DNA of 64,000 bases, from NCBI RefSeq assembly GCF_014698305.1, contig NZ_JACJST010000022.1, positions 1 to 64,000 on the forward strand, in the 5' to 3' direction. Below are positions 52,657 to 62,034 of the stretch, in pieces (position 1 is the stretch's first letter; each line of letters begins with the position of its first letter). A model generated the notes under the pieces. That model made no database searches. It saw only the letters and a list, made by a program, of their open reading frames with translations, and was not told the DNA's origin. The stretch is from Anabaena lutea FACHB-196. Its GTDB lineage: Bacteria > Cyanobacteriota > Cyanobacteriia > Cyanobacteriales > Nostocaceae. The position numbers and the translations under genes were made by a program.

Positions 52657-55068
52657 TTAGGTATTGGTGTAGATAGCGAGACGTTTAGAGATAGCTAAAG
52701 AATAGCGATCGCTCATATCTTCGAGACTAACTTTGAGCAAGCTGTGATTATCTGCGGTTACAATCTCCAAATTCCCTGAATTAGCGACTGTTCCCAGTTT
52801 TTGCCAATTTCCTGTCAGATGTTCCTGTAAATAGGATTCCCAAATTTCTTGGTTTTCTCCACTTACAGAAACTAAAATTCTCGCCCCACCTTCACCAAAC
52901 AGAAGTTCATCAAATCGTAAATGATGCTGGTTTTGTTTTTGGGCGGTAATTGGGAAATTAATTTCAGCCCCCAAATTTCCAGAAAGACAAGATTCCGCTA
53001 AAGCCACAGCCACACCACCTTCAGCCGAATCATGGGCAGAATTTACCCAACCAGCACGAATACCATCACGACAAGCTTTTTGTACAGTGCGTTCTAAATC
53101 AAAATCAACTCTAGGGGGTTTACCTGCGATCGTATTATGAATCGTTGCTAAATATTCAGAAGCACCCAATTCAATTGTAGCCCCACTGCTTTCTAAGGGG
53201 GGTTGGGGGGATCTCAATTGAATTGCTAAACCCAGAAGATAAATTACATCCCCGACATTTTTCCAACCTTGACCACAAATTTTCGTTAAATCAGGAATCA
53301 ACCCCACCATACCCACAACCGGAGTCGGATAAATTGGTTGGGGATTACCTTCCGCATCAAAAGTTTCGTTGTAGAGAGAGACATTCCCACCAGTTACCGG
53401 CGTTCCCAACTCTTTACAACCTTCACTCAAACCCCGACAAGCCGACGCTAATTGCCAATAACCAATCGGTTTTTCTGGGCTACCAAAATTGAGGTTATCG
53501 GTCACAGCCAAGGGTTCAGCACCCACACAGCTAAGATTGCGGGCAGCTTCAGCCACTACTGCCTTTGCCCCTTCATAGGGATCAAGATAAACATAACGAG
53601 AATTACAATCTACCGTAGCCGCAACACCGGATTTTAGATTTTCGATTTTGGATGTCAGATTGGGGGTTTCTTCTAAAGGCCGGAGACGCACCACAGCCGC
53701 ATCTGCACCACCGGGTAACAATACCGTATTATTCTGAACTTGATGGTCATATTGACGATAAACCCAGCTTTTAGAAGCAATGGTGGGAGTATCTAGCAAA
53801 GTCAATAAAATCTGATTCCAACTTTGCAAACTTCCCTCAATTTCAATACCCGCAGCATTGCAAACAGGTAAACTAGTACTTGTCCATTGCCAAGCTTTTT
53901 GTGCATATTCGGGCGGTTCTGTCAATAATTCTCTTTCATACAAAGGCGTATTTTCCGCCAAAGCTTCAGCAGGAATTTCCGCAGCAATTTTCCCCTGAAA
54001 CCAAATCCTGACAATGGGTTCTTCAATTACTGTCCCTGCCACAACGGCTTGCAGTCCCCAACGATGGAAAATATCAATTAATTCCTGTTCTCGTCCCTTT
54101 TCGGCTACAAACAACATTCGTTCTTGAGATTCCGAAAGCAGGTATTCATAGGGAATCATTCCCAATTCCCGCACCGGAATTTTATCTAAATCGAAGTCAA
54201 TACCAACTCCACCTTTAGCAGCCATTTCTGAAGTTGAACAGGTGATACCAGCCGCACCCATATCTTGGGCAGCAACCACAGCCCCAGTTTTAAATGCCTC
54301 TAAACAAGCTTCAATTAAGGACTTTTCTAAAAATGGATCTCCTACTTGCACAGCAGGACGGTTATCCATTGATTCATCAGTTAATTCGGCACTGGCGAAA
54401 CTTGCCCCGCCCATACCATCCCGTCCGGTGGTTGAACCCACATACAGCACGGGATTTCCGAAGCCTGAAGCCCCTGATTTGACAATTTCCGGCGTTTCCA
54501 TCAATCCCAAGGCCATGACGTTGACAAGGGGATTTCCAGAATAAGCGGGGTCAAAATAAACTTCACCACCAACAGTGGGAACCCCAACGCAGTTACCATA
54601 ATGGGAAATTCCCGCAACTACACCTGTAAACAATCTTTGGGTTTTTGGATCATTCAAATCACCAAAGCGCAAAGAATTTAATAAAGCTATGGGACGCGCC
54701 CCCATTGTAAAGATATCTCTTAATATACCACCTACTCCGGTTGCAGCACCTTGGAATGGTTCAACGGCGGAAGGGTGGTTATGGGATTCTATTTTAAACG
54801 CTAATTGTAGTCCGTCGCCGATATCCACAACTCCAGCATTTTCACCGGGGCCAACGAGAATGCGGGGGCCTGTGGTGGGAAACTGTTTGAGTAATGGGCG
54901 GGAATTTTTATAACAGCAATGTTCTGACCACATTACGCCAAACATACCTAGTTCGGCTTTGTTGGGATGACGACCTAAGCGGCGGACAATTTCGGTATAT
55001 TCTTCTGGTTTTATGCCTTCTGAGGCTATTTCTTGGGGAGAAAAGGGATTTTCGGAAATGGTGGTCAT
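52657..55068 (-). CDS. purL: Phosphoribosylformylglycinamidine synthase subunit PurL
   Basis: A 803-residue PurL of the small (PurQ/PurS-dependent) type, making FGAM from FGAR, ATP and ammonia. Family motifs are [83 protein letters not shown] and [12 protein letters not shown]-like TDNLNFG. Two extra segments are encoded by dispersed repeats in frame: around residues 470-480 (SKIENLKSG) and around 617-626 ([10 protein letters not shown]). Both seem to sit in surface loops, and the frame stays open, so the enzyme is probably functional. Confidence 0.97.
53192..53214. repeat. Dispersed repeat inside purL (AAGGGGGGTTGGGGGG)
   Basis: The core ctaaggggggttggggggat is shared with the intergenic copies at 35128-35145. 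It codes in frame for [10 protein letters not shown] in PurL. Confidence 0.75.
53630..53662. repeat. Heptamer-type repeat inside purL (GATTTTAGATTTTCGATTTT)
   Basis: An AT-rich tandem of gatttta/gattttc/gattttg units, like the aatccaaaatcgaaaatcc array at 62000-62022 in reverse. It codes in frame for the SKIENLKSG loop. Confidence 0.75.
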
Positions 55069-55216
55069 GGAAGCTTATGCACCAAGAGGACAGAGAAATA
55101 TTCTATCTGTTTACGGCAATTAAGATCATGGATTTCTTTTTAATCTTGTCAATAAATTATCAATTATAAAGTTATTCATAATGTTATAATGTGACCAGTT
55201 TTTACCCTGTATTTTT

Positions 55217-55453
55217 ATGACATTGACAGAAATTTTGCCATCACTGCGAAAATTATCTGATCAAGAAAAAATCAAAGCTATTCAATTTTTAGCCGCAGAA
55301 TTAGCTAAAAACGCAGAAAATTTAGCTTTTCTTGAAGATGGTAAAACTTATGAAATTTGGTCACCTTATGATGCTTTTTCAGCAGAAAAAACTTTAACTG
55401 ATATGTTGCAACAGCATTTACAAAAAGAAATAAATGACCAGGTTATAAATTAG
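55217..55453 (+). CDS. Small conserved hypothetical protein
   Basis: A 78-residue helical protein (LTEILPSLRKLSDQEKIKAI ... NAENLAFLEDGKTYEIWSPY), soluble and with an acidic C-terminal half. The layout (helix pair, then a W-S-P-Y-D-A motif) recurs in small cyanobacterial antitoxin-like proteins, and it stands nine bases from the convergent hicB gene. There is no toxin partner on its own strand. Function unknown. Confidence 0.6.
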   Translation: MTLTEILPSLRKLSDQEKIKAIQFLAAELAKNAENLAFLEDGKTYEIWSPYDAFSAEKTLTDMLQQHLQKEINDQVIN

Positions 55454-55461
55454 ATTTCTAC

Positions 55462-55674
55462 TTAAATTAAAACTTCAACTTCTTGAGCGATACTTGTAGG
55501 TTGAGGAATTGGTAAACCTGACTCTATTAAACCTTCTATATGAAATTCTATGGACTCTACAATTAGTTGTTGGACTTCTGCTAATGTTTCAGCCACAGCT
55601 ATACAACCGGGTAAGTCGGGAACATAAGCACCATAGCTAGTATTTCCTTTTTCAATTACTACTGTATAACGCAT
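55462..55674 (-). CDS. hicB: HicB-family antitoxin
   Basis: A 70-residue HicB of the short type without a DNA-binding tail. It has the partial RNase-H-like fold MRYTVVIEKGNTSYGAYVPD, the LPGCIAVAETLAEVQQLIVE motif and EFHIEGLIESGLPIP. The ATG at 55674 shares one base with the hicA stop (TAATG) and has GGAGGAAG upstream, which decides the start. It neutralises HicA. Confidence 0.9.
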   Translation of the reverse strand: MRYTVVIEKGNTSYGAYVPDLPGCIAVAETLAEVQQLIVESIEFHIEGLIESGLPIPQPTSIAQEVEVLI

Positions 55675-55865
55675 TATTCTTCCTCCAATTGTGCTTGTTT
55701 CCATATACTTTTTAGTGTACCAATTGGTACGTCAATATTAGGTTTACCGGAAACTGTAACTGTACCAAGTTTATGAGGATGTTTAAACTGTCGGTGACTT
55801 CCTCTAGTTCTTGCTAAATACCAACCATCAGCTTCTAGTCGCTGAATCACTACTCTTACTTTCAT
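55674..55865 (-). CDS. hicA: HicA-family mRNA interferase toxin
   Basis: A 63-residue double-stranded-RNA-binding-fold toxin: VRVVIQRLEADGWYLARTRGSHRQFKHPHK, with the catalytic histidine in GSHRQFKH, and VTVSGKPNIDVPIGTLKSI. HicA cleaves mRNA and tmRNA without needing ribosomes. I start at the ATG at 55865, since the 16 residues upstream of it in the open frame are not family-like. It overlaps hicB by one base. Confidence 0.9.
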   Translation of the reverse strand: MKVRVVIQRLEADGWYLARTRGSHRQFKHPHKLGTVTVSGKPNIDVPIGTLKSIWKQAQLEEE

Positions 55866-55930
55866 ATTAACATCTATCTGTACAGGTGAAATTTCTGTTA
55901 TAGATTTTCTCATCTTTTATAATTTCTATT

Positions 55931-56899
55931 TTACTCCTCATCATCATCCAAATTTGAAATATAAGGTGGAAGTTTACCAAAACTAATTCTTTTTACATAT
56001 TTAATGGCGCGATGTTCCTCTAATGAGGTTTGAATTAAGGTGTTTATTAACAACCGAAATTTATTAACATCTGCTTGAGATGGTGATTTTAATTGTGAAG
56101 CTAATAAACTGGAAATTTGCAGTATCAACTTAATATTAGGTAAGTTAGTTTCGGTTTGTTCAATGATTTCATACTTTTTATTAAGACAATATTCATTACC
56201 TATATGAGAATAATCAGCCAGTGTTTTTAATAGTTCTGGTTTCCAATTAATAATTACTTGTTTTATTCCTGGGATTCTATTTAATAAAACAGCGATGATT
56301 TGCGGTAAGTTAGGAATGAAATCACCGATATTTCTAAATCTATATATGAGAGTATCAAGAATTAATTCTATTGTGCTAACTGGTGGTGTGCCAAATGTAT
56401 AAGTTTCTAAGGTATAAGGTGCAATAGGTTTTAATTCGGTTTCACTAATTCGTTTAGTAATTAATGTAGCCGCAGCACCGCCTAAACTATGTCCAGTGAC
56501 GAAAATATTTTTGTTGGCATTTTCTTGTCTTTGAATAAAGTCTTGTAATTGTTGCCAGAAACTTTTAACATAAAGATTAAAACCGGAATGAATTGCTTCT
56601 GAATTTGGGAATGCAAGTAAGTTAAAGAAGTAATCATCTAATCTTTCTGTACCTCTAATAGCCATGACAATATCATTGTCTGTGGATAGGAGTAAACCAC
56701 AACAAACTAATTCATCGGTATCACTCAAAGGACGTGATGCTGAGATAAATTCTATGGTTTGATATGGTGGAAAAAATGATGGAGAACCTGTTTTTAGGAT
56801 ATTGCTAACTATATCATTTCCTTGTTTATAGGCGACGTAAGCGAGTTGAGAAATACAAGCCATTTCTAGGGTGCGTTGTCTGTCGGTAGATGTTTTCAT
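55931..56899 (-). CDS. Lipase class 3 family protein
   Basis: A 322-residue alpha/beta-hydrolase of the fungal-lipase-like class 3. The oxyanion segment is VMAIRGTERLDDY, the nucleophile elbow GHSLGG (S138), the aspartate region IYRFRNIGDFIPNLPQ, and the histidine ADYSHIGNEY. There is no signal peptide. Substrates are probably glycerolipids but cannot be assigned. It lies between hicA and a PIN-toxin operon. Confidence 0.85.
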   Translation of the reverse strand: MKTSTDRQRTLEMACISQLAYVAYKQGNDIVSNILKTGSPSFFPPYQTIEFISASRPLSDTDELVCCGLLLSTDNDIVMAIRGTERLDDYFFNLLAFPNSEAIHSGFNLYVKSFWQQLQDFIQRQENANKNIFVTGHSLGGAAATLITKRISETELKPIAPYTLETYTFGTPPVSTIELILDTLIYRFRNIGDFIPNLPQIIAVLLNRIPGIKQVIINWKPELLKTLADYSHIGNEYCLNKKYEIIEQTETNLPNIKLILQISSLLASQLKSPSQADVNKFRLLINTLIQTSLEEHRAIKYVKRISFGKLPPYISNLDDDEE

Positions 56900-56964
56900 G
56901 TTGGTTAAAGAATTAGATTTTTGATTTTATTTCTGCAAAATAGATATGGTAGCCTGATTTACTG

Positions 56965-56970
56965 TATAAT
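56965..56970 (+). promoter_or_regulatory. -10 box of the RHH/PIN operon
   Basis: A perfect TATAAT stands 26 bases before the antitoxin start. The -35 region 17 bases upstream (agatat) is weak, which fits an autoregulated toxin-antitoxin promoter. Confidence 0.4.
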
Positions 56971-56995
56971 TAACTATGTAGCTCGCTGATAAAAT

Positions 56996-57208
56996 ATGCA
57001 AGATACCCTAACCATTGCCATTACACCAGAACTAAAAGCAGCACTTTTAGAAATTACCCAAACTGAAGGTATATCTGCTGATAGTTTAGTCGGTAAAGCT
57101 ATTGAAGACTATATTTTTACTCACAAATTCCGTGCATTGCGTTCGTATTTGATGAAAAAGAATGAAACAGTTTACACAGATGAGGAAATTTTTGAGATAA
57201 TTTCATGA
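56996..57208 (+). CDS. Ribbon-helix-helix-type antitoxin
   Basis: A 70-residue protein: TLTIAITPELKAALLEITQT followed by ISADSLVGKAIEDYIF, the pattern of a CopG/RHH DNA-binding domain, and a C-terminal toxin-wrapping arm (MKKNETVYTDEEIFEIIS). The PIN toxin gene overlaps its end by four bases (ATGA), showing translational coupling. Confidence 0.8.
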   Translation: MQDTLTIAITPELKAALLEITQTEGISADSLVGKAIEDYIFTHKFRALRSYLMKKNETVYTDEEIFEIIS

Positions 57209-57609
57209 AGCTAGTTATAGATACCAATGTTTTGATTGCTGCTTTTATTGCTAAAGGGATGTGTAGTACAGTTGTTGAACACTGTCTAATTGTGCATTCT
57301 CCCATTACTTCAGATTTTATTCTCAATGAATTACATGAAAAACTGACAGTAAAGTTTAAATACTCTCCTAAAGATGCGGGAGAGGTGATAAATTTATTGC
57401 GTTCTAGAATGCAGGTTGTAATACCTACACCGTTAAATGTGCCTGTCTGTCGTGATACAGATGATGATATGATTTTAGCAACTGCAATTACTGGAGAGGC
57501 AGTTTGCATTATTACAGGTGATAAAGACTTACTAATATTGAAAATGTTTGAATCAATTAAAATTATTGATCCAAAGGAATTTGCTGCTTCTGAAGAAATG
57601 CTGAGGTAA
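57205..57609 (+). CDS. PIN-domain toxin (TIGR00305 family)
   Basis: A 134-residue PIN ribonuclease of the 'putative toxin component' branch. Acidic residues are visible in VIDTNVLIAAFI, NELHEKL, CRDTDDDMILATAI and ITGDKDLL. It is complete and coupled to the antitoxin before it. The RNA target is unknown. Confidence 0.88.
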   Translation: MKLVIDTNVLIAAFIAKGMCSTVVEHCLIVHSPITSDFILNELHEKLTVKFKYSPKDAGEVINLLRSRMQVVIPTPLNVPVCRDTDDDMILATAITGEAVCIITGDKDLLILKMFESIKIIDPKEFAASEEMLR

Positions 57610-57895
57610 AGTTCTCTATCCATTTTAAATATTTCTTTTAAGTATATTTACGTAAAAGCTAAACTCGGAACATTCTCAATTGTATTTTCAGGTAGAAGCA
57701 GTGAGCTAGATATAAATGTATGTTTACTTATATGAAAAGACCAAAATTTATGTTACTATAATTACGCTTAGTAGCTTTTTCAAGTAAGCCTACTATTTCC
57801 CTAATGTGTCTTCAAAATTTACTCCCTTCAATACTCTCCTCAGTATAGAGATGGGTATCAAGGATTAATTATAATACACTATTAAGGAAATTAGT

Positions 57896-58144
57896 ATGAG
57901 TTATGTTCCCGCTCCAAAAACTCTTGAAGCCTTTCCACAAGCTAAACTAGTTAAAAGTAGAACACCCGTACAAGGAGGCGGCACATTACGAAAAAGATGG
58001 GAGGATAAAAAGTATATATATGAGTGGGATTCTAGACATGGTTTAGTTGAAAAGTATGATAAACGAGGTAATCATCTGGGAGAGTTTGATCCTGTAACAG
58101 GAGAAAAAATAAACCCTAGAGTAGCTTCTCGTAGAATCATTTAA
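57896..58144 (+). CDS. Stand-alone colicin E3/pyocin S6-type ribonuclease domain
   Basis: An 82-residue protein consisting only of the cytotoxic rRNase domain (PF09000 type): FPQAKLVKSRTPVQGGGTLR, KYIYEWDSRHGLVEKYDKRG and LGEFDPVTGEK. The four ColE3 catalytic residues D510, H513, E517 and R545 correspond exactly in spacing to D45, H48, E52 and R80 here. ColE3 cuts 16S rRNA in the decoding A site and stops translation. There is no receptor-binding or translocation domain and no signal peptide. An AAGGAAA precedes the ATG. A hairpin and a small gene, probably immunity, follow. Confidence 0.88.
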   Translation: MSYVPAPKTLEAFPQAKLVKSRTPVQGGGTLRKRWEDKKYIYEWDSRHGLVEKYDKRGNHLGEFDPVTGEKINPRVASRRII

Positions 58145-58150
58145 CAAAAT

Positions 58151-58169
58151 TGGGGGCTTTATGCCCCCA
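58151..58169 (+). terminator. Hairpin between ribonuclease and putative immunity gene
   Basis: TGGGGGC (58151-58157), loop TTTAT and GCCCCCA (58163-58169), followed by TTATCTAAAAATT. A weak T-run means partial termination; it could set the ratio of toxin to immunity message. Confidence 0.6.
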
Positions 58170-58226
58170 TTATCTAAAAATTAGATTTAATATTAAATTG
58201 AGTAATGAGTATTAGGAGAGTGAGTA

Positions 58227-58490
58227 ATGAGTATTAGAACACATAAACCATTAGTTCAAAGAGTTGTACGTTGGTATGCTAAATATGGCAGTGATCTTGT
58301 AGGAGAGAAAGTTTTGAATAATGTAAATCTTCCTAACCTCCAAAATTTATTTAGAGTGGAATCAAATAATCCTATGTATGATTGTTATCCAATTAAGTCT
58401 TTTGAACAAAAAAATTATATTGAAAAAACTTTTAGTTTTAAGCTAAACACACAGGCATACGATTATTTTATAGAATGTGATGCTATCTAA
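58227..58490 (+). CDS. Putative immunity protein for the E3-type ribonuclease
   Basis: An 87-residue protein, 82 bases after the toxin on the same strand with AGGAGAG (58215-58221) before its ATG. It is soluble, with a basic N-terminus (THKPLVQRVVRWYAKYG) and an aromatic-acidic C-terminus (LNTQAYDYFIECDAI). From memory, small DUF7683-type proteins of this look stand beside E3-type cytotoxin domains. ColE3 immunity (Im3) is also ~85 residues and acidic, but similarity to Im3 is not obvious. The role is inferred from position. Confidence 0.55.
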   Translation: MSIRTHKPLVQRVVRWYAKYGSDLVGEKVLNNVNLPNLQNLFRVESNNPMYDCYPIKSFEQKNYIEKTFSFKLNTQAYDYFIECDAI

Positions 58491-58669
58491 ATGTGTAAAG
58501 CTGATTTATATTTTTATTTTCTAACTTCATCATTTTTATCTATTGATTAGGTGCATTTTACAAATTTAATATCTCATTATTTAACGTTATTCAATTAATT
58601 GAACAGGTAGCCCAAGATATCAAATTTGAACAACATCGCACGGTTTTAATTAGAGCCTATGGTTTATTT

Positions 58670-59413
58670 GTGCAAGCTATAAACCGTTTACGTTCAGCTA
58701 TACAATTACAAGATATTAGCCGCAGAAATGCAGAAATTGACGCTGCTAGAGGAATGTTATTTGAGGCTTTAGCAGATTATACTAATCCCCATTTATTAGC
58801 AGAAACCTGTGCGCCTGGACAACTGCGGCGGTTAGAATGTTCTTGGGCTATTGAACAAGCAATTATTATCACTTATCAAGTGCAAAATGAAGTTTCGGCA
58901 GTAAGCGATCGCTTGCACCAACTCCAAACTAAAATATGTGAAGATGCCCATACTGTAATTAATCAATGTGAATCCCACGACGAACTTGATTTTCTCTTTC
59001 CTGAACTTACCCGCATTCATAATCATGATTTAGTAATCATCGAATCATGGCAAAATCATGTAGATTGGGTAAAATCTCTACCTCCAGCAGAATTAAAACT
59101 TTTAAATAGTGCTGATTTCAACAATTCCGAAACAACCCAAACTATAACTAATTCAGAAATACCACTAGAACAAATCAGCTATGAAACCATAGCCGAAAAA
59201 TCTCATTTTTATTCATTACGTGATCAATTATTATTTATGTTTGCTCCAGAATTACGCCGGGAGTATGAAAATTATGTCAGTCAACAAGCTGCAAATTCTG
59301 GATACAGAACATTAGTTACATCTAATTTACAACAAGCATCAGATTTAACAGTTGCTAATCTTTTTCACTATTTTAATATTAGAAATGAATCACAGGAAGA
59401 AGTAAATCAATAA
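58670..59413 (+). CDS. Hypothetical protein, probably 5'-truncated
   Basis: A 247-residue helical protein (SAIQLQDISRRNAEIDAARG, LAETCAPGQLRRLECSWAIEQA, AVSDRLHQLQTKI), soluble and of unknown function. The first usable codon is GTG at 58670, but the same frame is open for 41 more codons back to a TGA at 58544. Those codons read like protein (QVAQDIKFEQHRTVLIRAYG) but contain no ATG, GTG or TTG. The true start was probably lost by deletion or the gene is a fragment. Confidence 0.5.
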   Translation: MQAINRLRSAIQLQDISRRNAEIDAARGMLFEALADYTNPHLLAETCAPGQLRRLECSWAIEQAIIITYQVQNEVSAVSDRLHQLQTKICEDAHTVINQCESHDELDFLFPELTRIHNHDLVIIESWQNHVDWVKSLPPAELKLLNSADFNNSETTQTITNSEIPLEQISYETIAEKSHFYSLRDQLLFMFAPELRREYENYVSQQAANSGYRTLVTSNLQQASDLTVANLFHYFNIRNESQEEVNQ

Positions 59414-59474
59414 TCAACTTTTGAAAATGTTAAAAAACTGCTCAGTAAAACTAATCACTTTCCATTTATTCTAA

Positions 59475-59849
59475 CTACTCCGAAGGAGTTTCATCAACAG
59501 ATTTTTCCGCGACTTTCCTCACCGCTTCAATATCCACACCTAAATTTGCGGCTATTTGTTCCACAGTCAAACCTAACTGCAATAACAGCGGTACTGTTTC
59601 TAACTTACCTTCTAACTTACCCGCTACGTTTGCTTCCTCCGCAACTTCTCGAAAATACCGTGTTTGCTTTAATTCATCTAGAGTAAACATTGCTTCAATC
59701 TCCTGACGAGTTAAATTACTTAATTTATAAACTAAGATCGTCTCTAACAATTCTAGAACTTTTTGCCTTTTACTGGCATCAGTTAATTGTTGTCGGGATT
59801 TTTGGATTAACTGTTTGGTATGATCAATCGCAGTTTCCTGTTTTTCCAC
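59475..59849 (-). pseudogene. C-terminal part of a DUF2887/Rpn-family protein
   Basis: Residues 1-124 match, from memory, only the C-terminal ~110 residues of cyanobacterial DUF2887 (Rpn/PD-(D/E)XK-type recombination-associated) proteins: QKVLELLETILVYKLSNLTR, QEIEAMFTLDELKQTRYFRE and the coiled GKLEGKLETVPLLLQLGL. The nuclease domain of about 150 residues is missing; the frame starts with GTG at 59849. It is presumably a truncated remnant. Confidence 0.6.
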
Positions 59850-59904
59850 AACTAGTTGATATTTTGTATATTTACTTGAAAAAATACTACGGTTTGTATT
59901 GACC

Positions 59905-60546
59905 TTACCTACCTATTTCTAGATTTTTCAAAATTAAATCTGCTCTTGGACTAAAGCCATCACCATATTCTACCGGCAAATGAGTGATGACATAGAAAGC
60001 TTTACCTTTTTGTTCTCCAATGTAAACAGCACCCACTATATTTTTACCTTGGCTGAAAACAATTCTTTCTTTCGCCCAGGCATATTTGACATTATTACTC
60101 CGGCTCACAACCCGCCATTTATTAGATGCAATTAAACCATTTTTGCCATTCACAAAGTTTCTAACTTGTCCGAGAGTTTTTAAATAATTCAAAAAGGCAA
60201 AATGAATATATGCATTCTCATTTTTTTTACCACCAAAGTTAGCAATAAACCTCACTCCGCTTCCTTCTCCAGAACTGCTTTCTGTAACTAAAAAATCCTT
60301 TTCAGGAAAGTAGGTAGTTAATAAATTGCTATATTTATATAGTCTGAGTTTAACGGGAACTTTTTCACCTTCGACGGTAATTGTGGCAGTTTTGGTAGGC
60401 GGTTTATCGGCTTGAGAATTATCTCTAGTTAAAAGTGCTGTTTGGGTAGTTGTGAGGGTGTTTTCATGCTTCTGTGGCATAGCACAAGCAATGGATACGC
60501 CTAGAAGCATTATTCCAGCGGTTAATCTCATTAAATTCAGCTTCAT
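59905..60546 (-). CDS. Putative lipoprotein of unknown function
   Basis: A 213-residue exported protein. The N-terminus (MKLNLMRLTAGIMLLGVSIACAM) has a lipobox-like VSIAC, so lipid attachment at that cysteine is likely. A polar linker follows, and the ~150-residue rest is a mixed alpha/beta domain (PVKLRLYKYSNLLTTYFPEKD, GVRFIANFGGKKNENAYIHF). Not recognised. The ATG at 60546 removes three codons of the longest frame. Upstream lies a structured noncoding region. Confidence 0.65.
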   Translation of the reverse strand: MKLNLMRLTAGIMLLGVSIACAMPQKHENTLTTTQTALLTRDNSQADKPPTKTATITVEGEKVPVKLRLYKYSNLLTTYFPEKDFLVTESSSGEGSGVRFIANFGGKKNENAYIHFAFLNYLKTLGQVRNFVNGKNGLIASNKWRVVSRSNNVKYAWAKERIVFSQGKNIVGAVYIGEQKGKAFYVITHLPVEYGDGFSPRADLILKNLEIGR

Positions 60547-60862
60547 TTTATATCCCAAGTATTTAGTATTAACTTAAATAAAAGAAACAGACACAGAGGG
60601 AAACTCTGATGCTGAGAACCTTTCAAATGCGGAGTTTGGGTATTCAACCCAAGTTATCCTCCCGAGAGTAAACGCTCTGCGTCTTCTTGATCAGAGTTGA
60701 CTGTTGGATCTGAGCAACTGTTCCTAACTCAATAATGTTGACGTATTTTTATATATCAATAAAATGCTAAATACAATACATTTTATCTGTAATTTTTACG
60801 TGATTTTCATCACTAGTATTTATGATTAGAATCACACGTATTCATGATTAAGATCGTCTCTT
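60547..60862. other. Structured noncoding region upstream of the lipoprotein gene
   Basis: At 60631-60662 GGAG pairs with CTCC around a perfect TTGGGT-loop-ACCCAA stem (60636-60641 and 60647-60652). A second short stem, AGAG/CTCT, stands at 60664-60677. This could be a 5' leader structure of the minus-strand lipoprotein gene or an unrelated RNA. 60678-60862 shows no gene. Confidence 0.35.
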
Positions 60863-60967
60863 TATAATTAGCAAATTGGCATAATTCAGTACAACTGAAC
60901 TCTAGCCGAGTCATTAATAGGGAACACATCAAGTGCCGACAGCCTTTTACAGGATTGTTGGCTTTTT
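60863..60967 (+). ncRNA. Candidate small RNA with promoter and terminator
   Basis: A TATAAT at 60863-60868 is followed 67 bases later by an intrinsic terminator: GCCGACA (60935-60941) pairs with TGTTGGC (60956-60962), then TTTTT. Nothing in between codes for a protein of note. The -35 region is weak. If transcribed, an RNA of about 90 bases is expected. Confidence 0.35.
60935..60967 (+). terminator. Intrinsic terminator of the candidate RNA
   Basis: A 7-bp stem with one G-U pair, a 14-base loop and a five-T tail, on the plus strand. Confidence 0.65.
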
Positions 60968-60996
60968 ATTAATGGTAATTCTAAACAATTAAAAAT

Positions 60997-61036
60997 AATT
61001 CGTAATTCGTAATTCGTAATTCGTAATTCGTAATTC
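60997..61036. repeat. Heptanucleotide repeat (ATTCGTA)x5
   Basis: Five near-perfect attcgta units. From here to the apcD stop at 61367 no gene is seen; a minus-strand frame at 60886-61134 runs through the repeat and is spurious. Confidence 0.9.
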
Positions 61037-61366
61037 AGTTTTTCAACGGGGAAGCAAGCTAAGGGTAACGTCCCGTAGGTAAAGCTCACTTGAGCCGCTG
61101 ACGCTGATTCAGTCGAACGCTTGTCAAAACTCACGGCGGAAGCCTGTCACTTGTCATATTACAAAAATAAGGCTAATGGTCGTTGAATAGGGATTTTGAT
61201 CAAATATCCCCACAATCGGTTAATAACTTGACACATAATTTGCCATAGCCACTACCAAGTGTGGGGACAAGATGATCACATGAAGAAATTTATTGCCATC
61301 AAGTGCTAACGTCTGATAACTCTAGTAGACTCAAAATCCACTGGGAGAACCAGCACAGGCTTTATA

Positions 61367-61852
61367 TCAGGACATCGCTTGAATGATGTAATCAAAGTAA
61401 GGCGCTGTTTCGGCGGCATCTTCAGCACTCAATAAATCCAATGATGCTTGCTTCAGGGAAGTGATAGCTTCAACCATTCCAGGAACAGGAACGCCCAGAG
61501 AGTTGTACATTTCCCGCACGCCTACTAAACCAATCTTTTCAATTGGTTCTTTATCGCCAGCAAGTACACCGTAGGTAATCAGGCGCAAGTACCAACCGAA
61601 ATCACGGATACACAAAGCACGTTGTTTTTCACCGTAAGCATTACCGCCGGGGGCAATAAAGTCAGGACGCTTCTGCCAAAGTTTTTTGGTGGCTTCTTGG
61701 ACTATCTTTTTTTCATTTTCGGCGAGGGTAGTAACGATTCTTGTGCGTTGTACACCAGTTTCCAAAAATTCTTTAATACTCTTGAGTTCGCCACTACTGG
61801 GGTAGCGCAGTTCGTCATCGGCTTGGAGAATAACTTGGCTAATTACAGTCAT
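61367..61852 (-). CDS. apcD: Allophycocyanin alpha-B subunit (ApcD)
   Basis: A 161-residue phycobiliprotein, a terminal emitter of the phycobilisome core that passes energy mainly to photosystem I. The bilin-binding cysteine lies in [18 protein letters not shown]; further motifs are [19 protein letters not shown] and [18 protein letters not shown]. The end [19 protein letters not shown] fits ApcD rather than ApcA or ApcF. Length matches (161). The ATG at 61852 is clear. It stands alone, as apcD usually does. Confidence 0.95.
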
Positions 61853-61931
61853 GATTATTAAGCTGTTACGCGAAATATTATTTGCTAGTTTAACTAGTTA
61901 GAGGTACAGAAGTGAAGGGTGTGAGAAGATA

Positions 61932-61962
61932 GGGATGGGAACTGGGGATTGGGGATTGGGGA
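61932..61962. repeat. STRR of (GGGGATT)n between apcD and rlmD
   Basis: About four ggggatt/gggaact heptamers lie in the divergent spacer. A second repeat-like stretch (aatccaaaatcgaaaatcc) is at 62000-62022. Confidence 0.85.
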
Positions 61963-62034
61963 AAATTAAGGAAGTAATTGTAATAATTCTTCAATCACCA
62001 AATCCAAAATCGAAAATCCAAAATTGAATGACTA

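Follow-up and report, generated by a model that had tools for sequence, protein, structure and literature searches.

Colicin E3 cleaves 16S rRNA at the bond that joins A1493 to G1494, and the cut ends carry a 2',3'-cyclic phosphate and a 5'-OH (PMC9223846). In Pseudomonas aeruginosa PAO1, the immunity gene of pyocin S6 has been kept after a toxin remnant, and this gene protects (PMC4905994). Standalone toxin cassettes have been described in general, and polymorphic toxins are reported to vary by recombining with them (PMC3482391). A survey of nuclease bacteriocins dropped ORFs of fewer than 350 residues and E3-type pairs more than 60 bp apart (PMC5536347), and the stand-alone form reported here would have been missed because these size and spacing filters exclude such pairs.

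Our study examined a window of 64 000 nt from Anabaena lutea FACHB-196 (contig NZ_JACJST010000022.1), in which a preliminary description had proposed a stand-alone colicin E3-type rRNase gene followed by a putative immunity gene. Both ORFs are present as it had placed them, on the plus strand at 57896–58144 and 58227–58490.

The E3-type toxin gene and its DUF7683 partner

The 82-aa product of the first gene matched PF09000 with an E value of 1.3e-34 and 118.8 bits (cut-off 22), residues 4–81 covering profile positions 1–79 of 80, that is, the whole domain. Five colicin E3 chains were matched in the PDB (E 7.9e-14 to 2e-12), and these two results rule out a chance resemblance. The profile search that had been suggested as a check therefore upheld the domain assignment, and the enzyme identity is well supported by sequence and fold; by sequence, the protein is predicted to cleave 16S rRNA. 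No match was found in NCBIfam, and PADLOC gave only a weak one (NsnC, E 0.0091, 13.5 bits).

The putative catalytic set comprises D45, H48, E52, H60 and R79. The first three fall on the DxxHxxxE motif of colicin E3 in the alignment and agree with the preliminary description, which had named R80 as the fourth residue. R80 does keep the raw spacing to the colicin E3 numbers quoted there (510, 513, 517 and 545), but a gap of one residue, located between E52 and H60 in the alignment, shifts the conserved arginine to R79. In an alignment that excluded identical rows, three duplicate loci, L005 and L006, position 79 was arginine in 11 of 12 stand-alone rows (L021 lacks it) and 78 of 80 others, compared with 4 of 12 and 17 of 80 for position 80, and D45, H48, E52 and H60 were kept in all 12 stand-alone rows. 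Row L076 lacks eight loop residues.

Absence of a delivery domain was also borne out. The toxin frame spans 89 codons from stop to stop, and an in-frame stop precedes the start by 7 codons. The frame holds no fused translocation or receptor domain, and no delivery-domain match was found in the 4 kb upstream. The toxin is the single PF09000 match in the whole genome (G000).

The second gene, at 58227–58490, is real; it encodes 87 aa and matches the Pfam family DUF7683 (PF24731) with 67.9 bits. Its predicted fold is that of the colicin E3 immunity protein (ImE3), with 16% identity in the fold alignment and a different Pfam family, and the input alignment of the model included four cloacin-type rows, which may have nudged it towards the Im3 fold. 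Profile comparison linked the partner to cloacin-type immunity (probability 94.3). A PDB profile search placed ImE3 top but weakly (E 0.0047), and a sensor protein and calmodulins came next, from E 0.0057. Because ImE3 was so closely trailed by unrelated proteins, we give more weight to the fold result. When the partner sequence itself was searched against the PDB, it returned chance matches only, NCBIfam gave matches below the cut-off, PADLOC gave none, and no DNA-binding family was seen in the Pfam search.

DUF7683 is also the first downstream ORF of 57 of the 69 non-stand-alone E3 toxins scanned. The partner thus combines a position after an E3 toxin with a profile match and the colicin E3 immunity fold, which bears out its description as a putative immunity gene. 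It is very probably the antidote of the neighbouring toxin, a role well supported by sequence and fold, and it would be expected to neutralize the toxin of the window. Im3-type proteins bind their toxins very tightly. In 64 of 66 pairs the toxin was better conserved than the immunity protein, so the partner evolves faster, and the distances of the two proteins were correlated (r 0.64; Mantel 0/5000), which may merely reflect shared descent. In one stand-alone locus (L023:5281–5949) the DUF7683 partner has an additional C-terminal part of about 120 aa without a Pfam family. DUF7683 genes also occur in genomes free of PF09000 at L015:413–1746 and L016:749–1746, near a P-loop kinase gene that, read by eye, has the look of a zeta-type toxin.

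The two genes are separated by an 82-nt spacer (58145–58226, plus strand) with a 7-bp G+C-rich hairpin (stem-loop 58151–58169; RNA fold z −3.0 and −3.2). Its first 60 nt, a stretch picked after the alignment had been viewed, are identical at 60 of 60 positions to those of L020, a locus in another genus of the family, compared with 171 of 200 upstream. The hairpin was matched in 7 of 177 loci, all of them copies of the window place and of the L012/L020 place, and no stable hairpin was seen in the other ten stand-alone spacers or overlaps. A role as a conserved regulator is ruled out by this confinement; the hairpin might set the toxin:antidote ratio where it occurs. Rfam had no match at 54000–62000.

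Promoter-like hexamers (TAGAGA-18-TATAAT) precede the toxin gene at 57846–57875 on the plus strand, as weak evidence from a consensus scan that found 8 such sites in the region against 5.3 expected. In five other stand-alone loci (L022, L024, L025, L027 and L028) the 52 nt before the start share 55–83% identity around an ATAAT core, whereas a shuffled control, made from one pair, gave a mean of 30% and a maximum of 45%. The next 52 nt upstream were alike in 3 of 10 pairs (L022, L024 and L027 among themselves), and the 52 nt after the partner reached at most 44% identity among the five. This pattern suggests that a promoter travels with the pair in these loci. L023 lacks the ATAAT-core leader, and the leader of the window differs from that of the five and holds a TATAAT box.

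Distribution and surroundings of the pair

Scanning a collection of species genomes, with motifs whose source alignment was rich in cyanobacteria, returned 133 relatives. Among the best 80 of these 133, which were kept for analysis, 11 encode a toxin of 76–84 aa without an N-terminal extension, and all 11 are cyanobacterial. With the window there are 12 stand-alone cyanobacterial loci, in each of which the toxin starts at the domain edge; L020, L028 and L057 duplicate L012, L008 and L003, respectively, and each such locus was counted once. The hosts include Argonema, three Xenococcaceae, a Chroococcidiopsidaceae MAG, Pleurocapsales LEGE 10410, Myxosarcina, Symploca and Prochloron. DUF7683 is the next ORF in 12 of 12, as called with a custom profile seeded with three of them and with Pfam (11 loci, then L023), so that the linkage proposed for survey was found throughout. 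One genome (G156) carries a stand-alone pair and, separately, an E3 toxin in fused form that likewise has a DUF7683 gene beside it.

An in-frame stop lies 0–9 codons upstream of the toxin start in all 12 loci. Delivery-domain DNA was found upstream of none of them, with controls positive at 6 of 7; the queries were 86 delivery parts of fused toxins, few of them cyanobacterial, with which a cyanobacterial remnant could be missed, and the DNA searched was short at L028 (124 nt), L022 (631 nt) and L024 (2219 nt). Flanks are largely unshared, except that the window and L020 share theirs; two more gene families connect L027 to L025 and to L028. No common neighbour fit to be a secretion part was seen in a comparison that covered part of the ORFs against families and short flanks for L022, L024 and L028. 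About 1 kb upstream of the toxin, L027 has HigB/HigA-type toxin–antitoxin-like genes (read by eye), which parallel the PIN-domain pair of the window.

PF09000 was found in 2 of 40 relatives and in 6 of 386 sampled cyanobacteria, and DUF7683 in 6 of the same 386, the genome of the window being counted each time. Both families occur in three sampled cyanobacteria (G000, G100 and G156), whose four PF09000 loci (two in G156, one of them the fused toxin) all adjoin DUF7683. DUF7683 occurs without PF09000 in G173, G214 and G079. Three genomes have PF09000 without DUF7683: in G077, which belongs to the family of the window's host, the first histidine is replaced by K (read from a Nostoc sp. UHCC 0870 plasmid record with matching coordinates), in G108 by T, and in G092 the match is partial (34 positions). 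In the Nostoc plasmid (L004:3–5234) the E3 domain ends a giant protein, in a 3215-codon frame in G077.

Elsewhere the domain was seldom free-standing. The Actinomycetota sample had a PF09000 match in 4 of 396 genomes (centre genome counted): one fused, one stand-alone and two in which a shorter E3-like match has another partner. The stand-alone case (L166:1230–1743, minus strand) encodes an 82-aa toxin with DUF7683 (35 bits) 7 nt downstream, so the pair, placed by the preliminary description in a cyanobacterial chromosome, is present in one actinomycete genome as well. In the Pseudomonadota sample, 6 of 398 genomes (centre genome counted) held 9 loci, eight in frames of 386–423 codons and the ninth, a partial match, in a frame of 150 codons; all 26 viral-contig loci have N-terminal extensions of at least 441 residues. 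Since the stand-alone form was seen in 0 of 26 viral-contig and 0 of 9 Pseudomonadota loci, gene calling does not generally produce it as an artefact. Four short E3 ORFs from Pseudomonadota/Enterobacterales (L047, L053, L083 and L096) all have delivery-type sequence upstream, and they were classed as non-stand-alone because their starts adjoin or fall inside it. Plasmid records with a PF09000 match numbered 893, mostly from Klebsiella; H1, H2 and their surroundings were inspected.

E3-like genes with PF09000 scores of 49.7–56.6 bits were also seen in Gordonia phage Phabuloso (L005:2665–4018) and at L167 and L168; judged by eye, they retain D, H, E, H and R in the positions expected of the domain. 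The Phabuloso gene is annotated 'HicA-like' and sits between an immunity repressor and an integrase. The partners at these three loci have no Pfam family and share an 'IDDW/Y.DRWH' motif, and IrrE-like protease genes come next in L167 and L168.

In the window, the pair has toxin–antitoxin-like company, and the 'toxin–antitoxin-rich island' of the preliminary description is a fair term. HicA/HicB-like genes lie at 55462–55913 on the minus strand (HicA_toxin 73 bits, HicB_lk_antitox 57.7 bits), and a PIN-domain toxin-like gene (PIN_3, 52 bits) with a small upstream partner of 70 aa, for which no Pfam family was found, lies at 56996–57609 on the plus strand. Between these is a class-3 lipase-like gene (55931–56899, minus strand, 64.2 bits). 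The contig is likely chromosomal, since a gene that we read as PurL-like lies at 52657–55068.

The PIN-domain gene forms the left border of a variable slot. A congener (G001) has flanking genes 94% identical to those of the window, with the break between positions 57614 and 58592; by these BLAST break points, a 977-bp segment (57615–58591) differs and is represented in G001 by about 2.7 kb of other genes, among them one for a 662-aa dynamin-like protein (Dynamin_N 85.4 bits; PADLOC LeoA 68.2 bits). The sequence comparison indicates that the pair stands in place of this Leo-like dynamin gene. Directly to the right, at 58592–59437 on the plus strand, is the 3' part of a neighbouring gene, which is 428 aa in full form in G001 and leaves here an ORF of 247 aa (58670–59413). 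The same slot holds a similar dynamin/425-aa gene pair in G004, an 804-aa protein that combines an AAA ATPase domain and an exonuclease domain in G002, and other small genes in G003; PF09000 was absent from all four congeners. In L020 the arrangement is the same as in the window. The pair thus occupies a variable, defence-like slot. Congener slots L152 (4595–7958), L153 and L156 carry a Leo-like dynamin with an unclassified 425–428-aa gene, or the 804-aa protein.

Among five Xenococcaceae/Pleurocapsales loci (10 pairs), dN/dS was 0.11–0.43 for the toxin and 0.12–0.27 for the partner; by sequence, this demonstrates selection against amino-acid change in both genes within this one clade. Between the window and L020 the toxin had a dN/dS of 0.69, from 12 nonsynonymous and 5 synonymous differences, compared with 0.34 for the partner and 0.08–0.22 for four neighbouring genes. 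Given so few changes, the toxin value may reflect relaxed constraint, diversification or noise in the lineage of the window. In a tree of 92 rows and 96 columns that left 46 of its 89 inner branches open, 2 changes were required for the stand-alone label and a single clade was not rejected (p-AU 0.917), so that the stand-alone form may have a single origin, as far as compatibility with this tree goes.

Function of the pair and competing explanations

Taken together, the sequences and predicted folds document an enzyme domain with its catalytic residues, a partner defined by family and fold, constant pairing and no delivery parts. The locus is probably a self-contained rRNase/immunity cassette, used intracellularly as a toxin–antitoxin or defence module, and this suggests a weapon part converted to an internal toxin–antidote switch. 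We infer intracellular use: the pair most likely acts in its own cell, because no receptor, translocation or secretion part accompanies it. By gene layout alone it has the anatomy of a type II toxin–antitoxin system, namely two small adjacent genes without export parts.

In such a cassette, the E3-type endoribonuclease would be expected to remain in the cytoplasm and would cut 16S rRNA at the decoding centre, at the same A1493/G1494 bond as colicin E3, while the Im3-like immunity protein would bind it and block cutting. The cassette would be harmless for as long as the antidote is made; its loss or removal, presumably through loss of the element, infection or stress, would stop the ribosomes. 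A 15-base 16S stretch, which we take to hold the colicin E3 cleavage site, was found in G100, a genome with the pair, and the toxin should therefore endanger its own cell without the antidote. For the window's own genome, the assembly yielded no 16S gene. Repair by RtcB2-PrfH in the genomes with the pair was considered and set aside, as none of the 12 had a match above the PrfH cut-off; sub-threshold matches in all 12 were read as ordinary release factors.

Several features count against a toxin–antitoxin reading. Tight Im3-type binding and the lack of a DNA-binding family are unlike a classic labile, autoregulated antitoxin, and the faster evolution of the partner resembles that of weapon immunities. 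The toxin dN/dS of 0.69 between the window and L020, the lack of a convincing PADLOC match for the pair, the missing arginine of L021 and the shortened loop of L076 also weigh against it. More tentatively, and as a possibility we would not yet bet on, decoding-centre cleavage, familiar from secreted weapons of the colicin type, may serve as a chromosomal suicide or anti-phage switch, its cassette moving among defence slots across the Cyanobacteria, with a parallel form using a different partner in actinomycetes and in a Gordonia phage lysogeny region.

The same rapid divergence of immunity (64 of 66 pairs) would fit an exported weapon, in which machinery encoded elsewhere (T6SS, a contractile particle or vesicles) would secrete or inject the toxin and DUF7683 would shield the producer. 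In most other loci these enzyme and immunity families come at the end of large delivery proteins, and a phage-type sheath gene (PF04984) occurs in 6 of the 12 genomes with a stand-alone pair, although these genomes need not have contractile particles, because phage sheath genes match the profile too. Export is nevertheless unlikely, as the protein is the catalytic domain alone, the flanks searched for the 12 loci showed no common secretion-like neighbour, and the sheath match is absent from G000 and five other genomes. Cargo of a contractile particle (eCIS) is accordingly disfavoured for the genome of the window. Of the three roles first offered, a self-contained toxin–antitoxin-like or defence module is favoured.

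No more probable is a spare cassette kept for recombination into larger toxins, or an immunity gene kept against incoming E3-type toxins. Precedents are the recombination of polymorphic toxins with standalone cassettes, as reported in PMC3482391, and the protective S6 immunity gene retained by PAO1 (PMC4905994), and DUF7683 does occur without PF09000 in G173, G214 and G079. Against this, the genome of the window has no parent toxin for its single PF09000 match, no delivery remnants lie beside the 12 pairs, and the toxin keeps its catalytic residues, with purifying selection in one clade. It is very improbable that the gene is a decayed relic, now functionless, of a colicin-like or polymorphic toxin: the dN/dS of 0.69 against L020, the adjoining truncated gene and the delivery-domain DNA upstream of the four short Pseudomonadota ORFs would fit decay, but D45, H48, E52 and H60, the start point with its stop 0–9 codons upstream, and the partner are all kept in 12 of 12 loci, and toxin dN/dS is 0.11–0.43 in one clade.

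The absence of linked delivery, a leader that seems to travel with the pair, an antidote present at every locus, the variety of contexts and the defence-type slot therefore favour intracellular use as a toxin–antitoxin-like or defence module over export, reservoir or immunity keeping, and decay. If this is true, the pair shows how a delivered ribotoxin can lose its delivery parts and become an internal switch, offers a small, directly testable system for decoding-centre cleavage within its own host, and gives DUF7683, a Pfam family of unknown function, a role as the common E3-type immunity family.

Comparison with known systems

No title among the literature matches listed concerned a stand-alone E3/DUF7683 pair, which is no proof of absence, and no literature naming DUF7683 was found. 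The enzyme, the immunity principle, cyanobacterial Tox-ColE3 and the notion of standalone cassettes are already known, as PMC3482391 describes; what appears to be new, within these literature searches, is that a delivery-free pair is conserved across Cyanobacteria, that it lies in a defence-like slot and that its Im3-type partner is DUF7683.

Colicin E3 and the cloacin-type rRNase bacteriocins have translocation and receptor domains that are absent from the toxin of the window, and ImE3 belongs to another Pfam family than its partner, at the low identity given above. Pyocin S6 likewise combines a PF09000 killing domain with a small downstream immunity gene, but is a 571-residue protein with delivery domains (PMC4905994). 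Closest in domain content are the Tox-ColE3 polymorphic toxins, which have the same toxin domain and are reported from cyanobacteria; the immunities given for them in PMC3482391 are Imm-Cloacin and Imm45, whereas the partner here is DUF7683. Unlike those cassettes, the pair stands in a genome without a parent toxin and recurs as an independent unit in varied contexts. Among type II toxin–antitoxin systems, RelS-RelI is also a small 16S rRNA-cutting toxin with a protein antitoxin, cutting by the window toxin being predicted, but RelS is of the RelE superfamily and cuts the anti-Shine–Dalgarno region, and RelI is a helix-turn-helix protein (PMC13284704).
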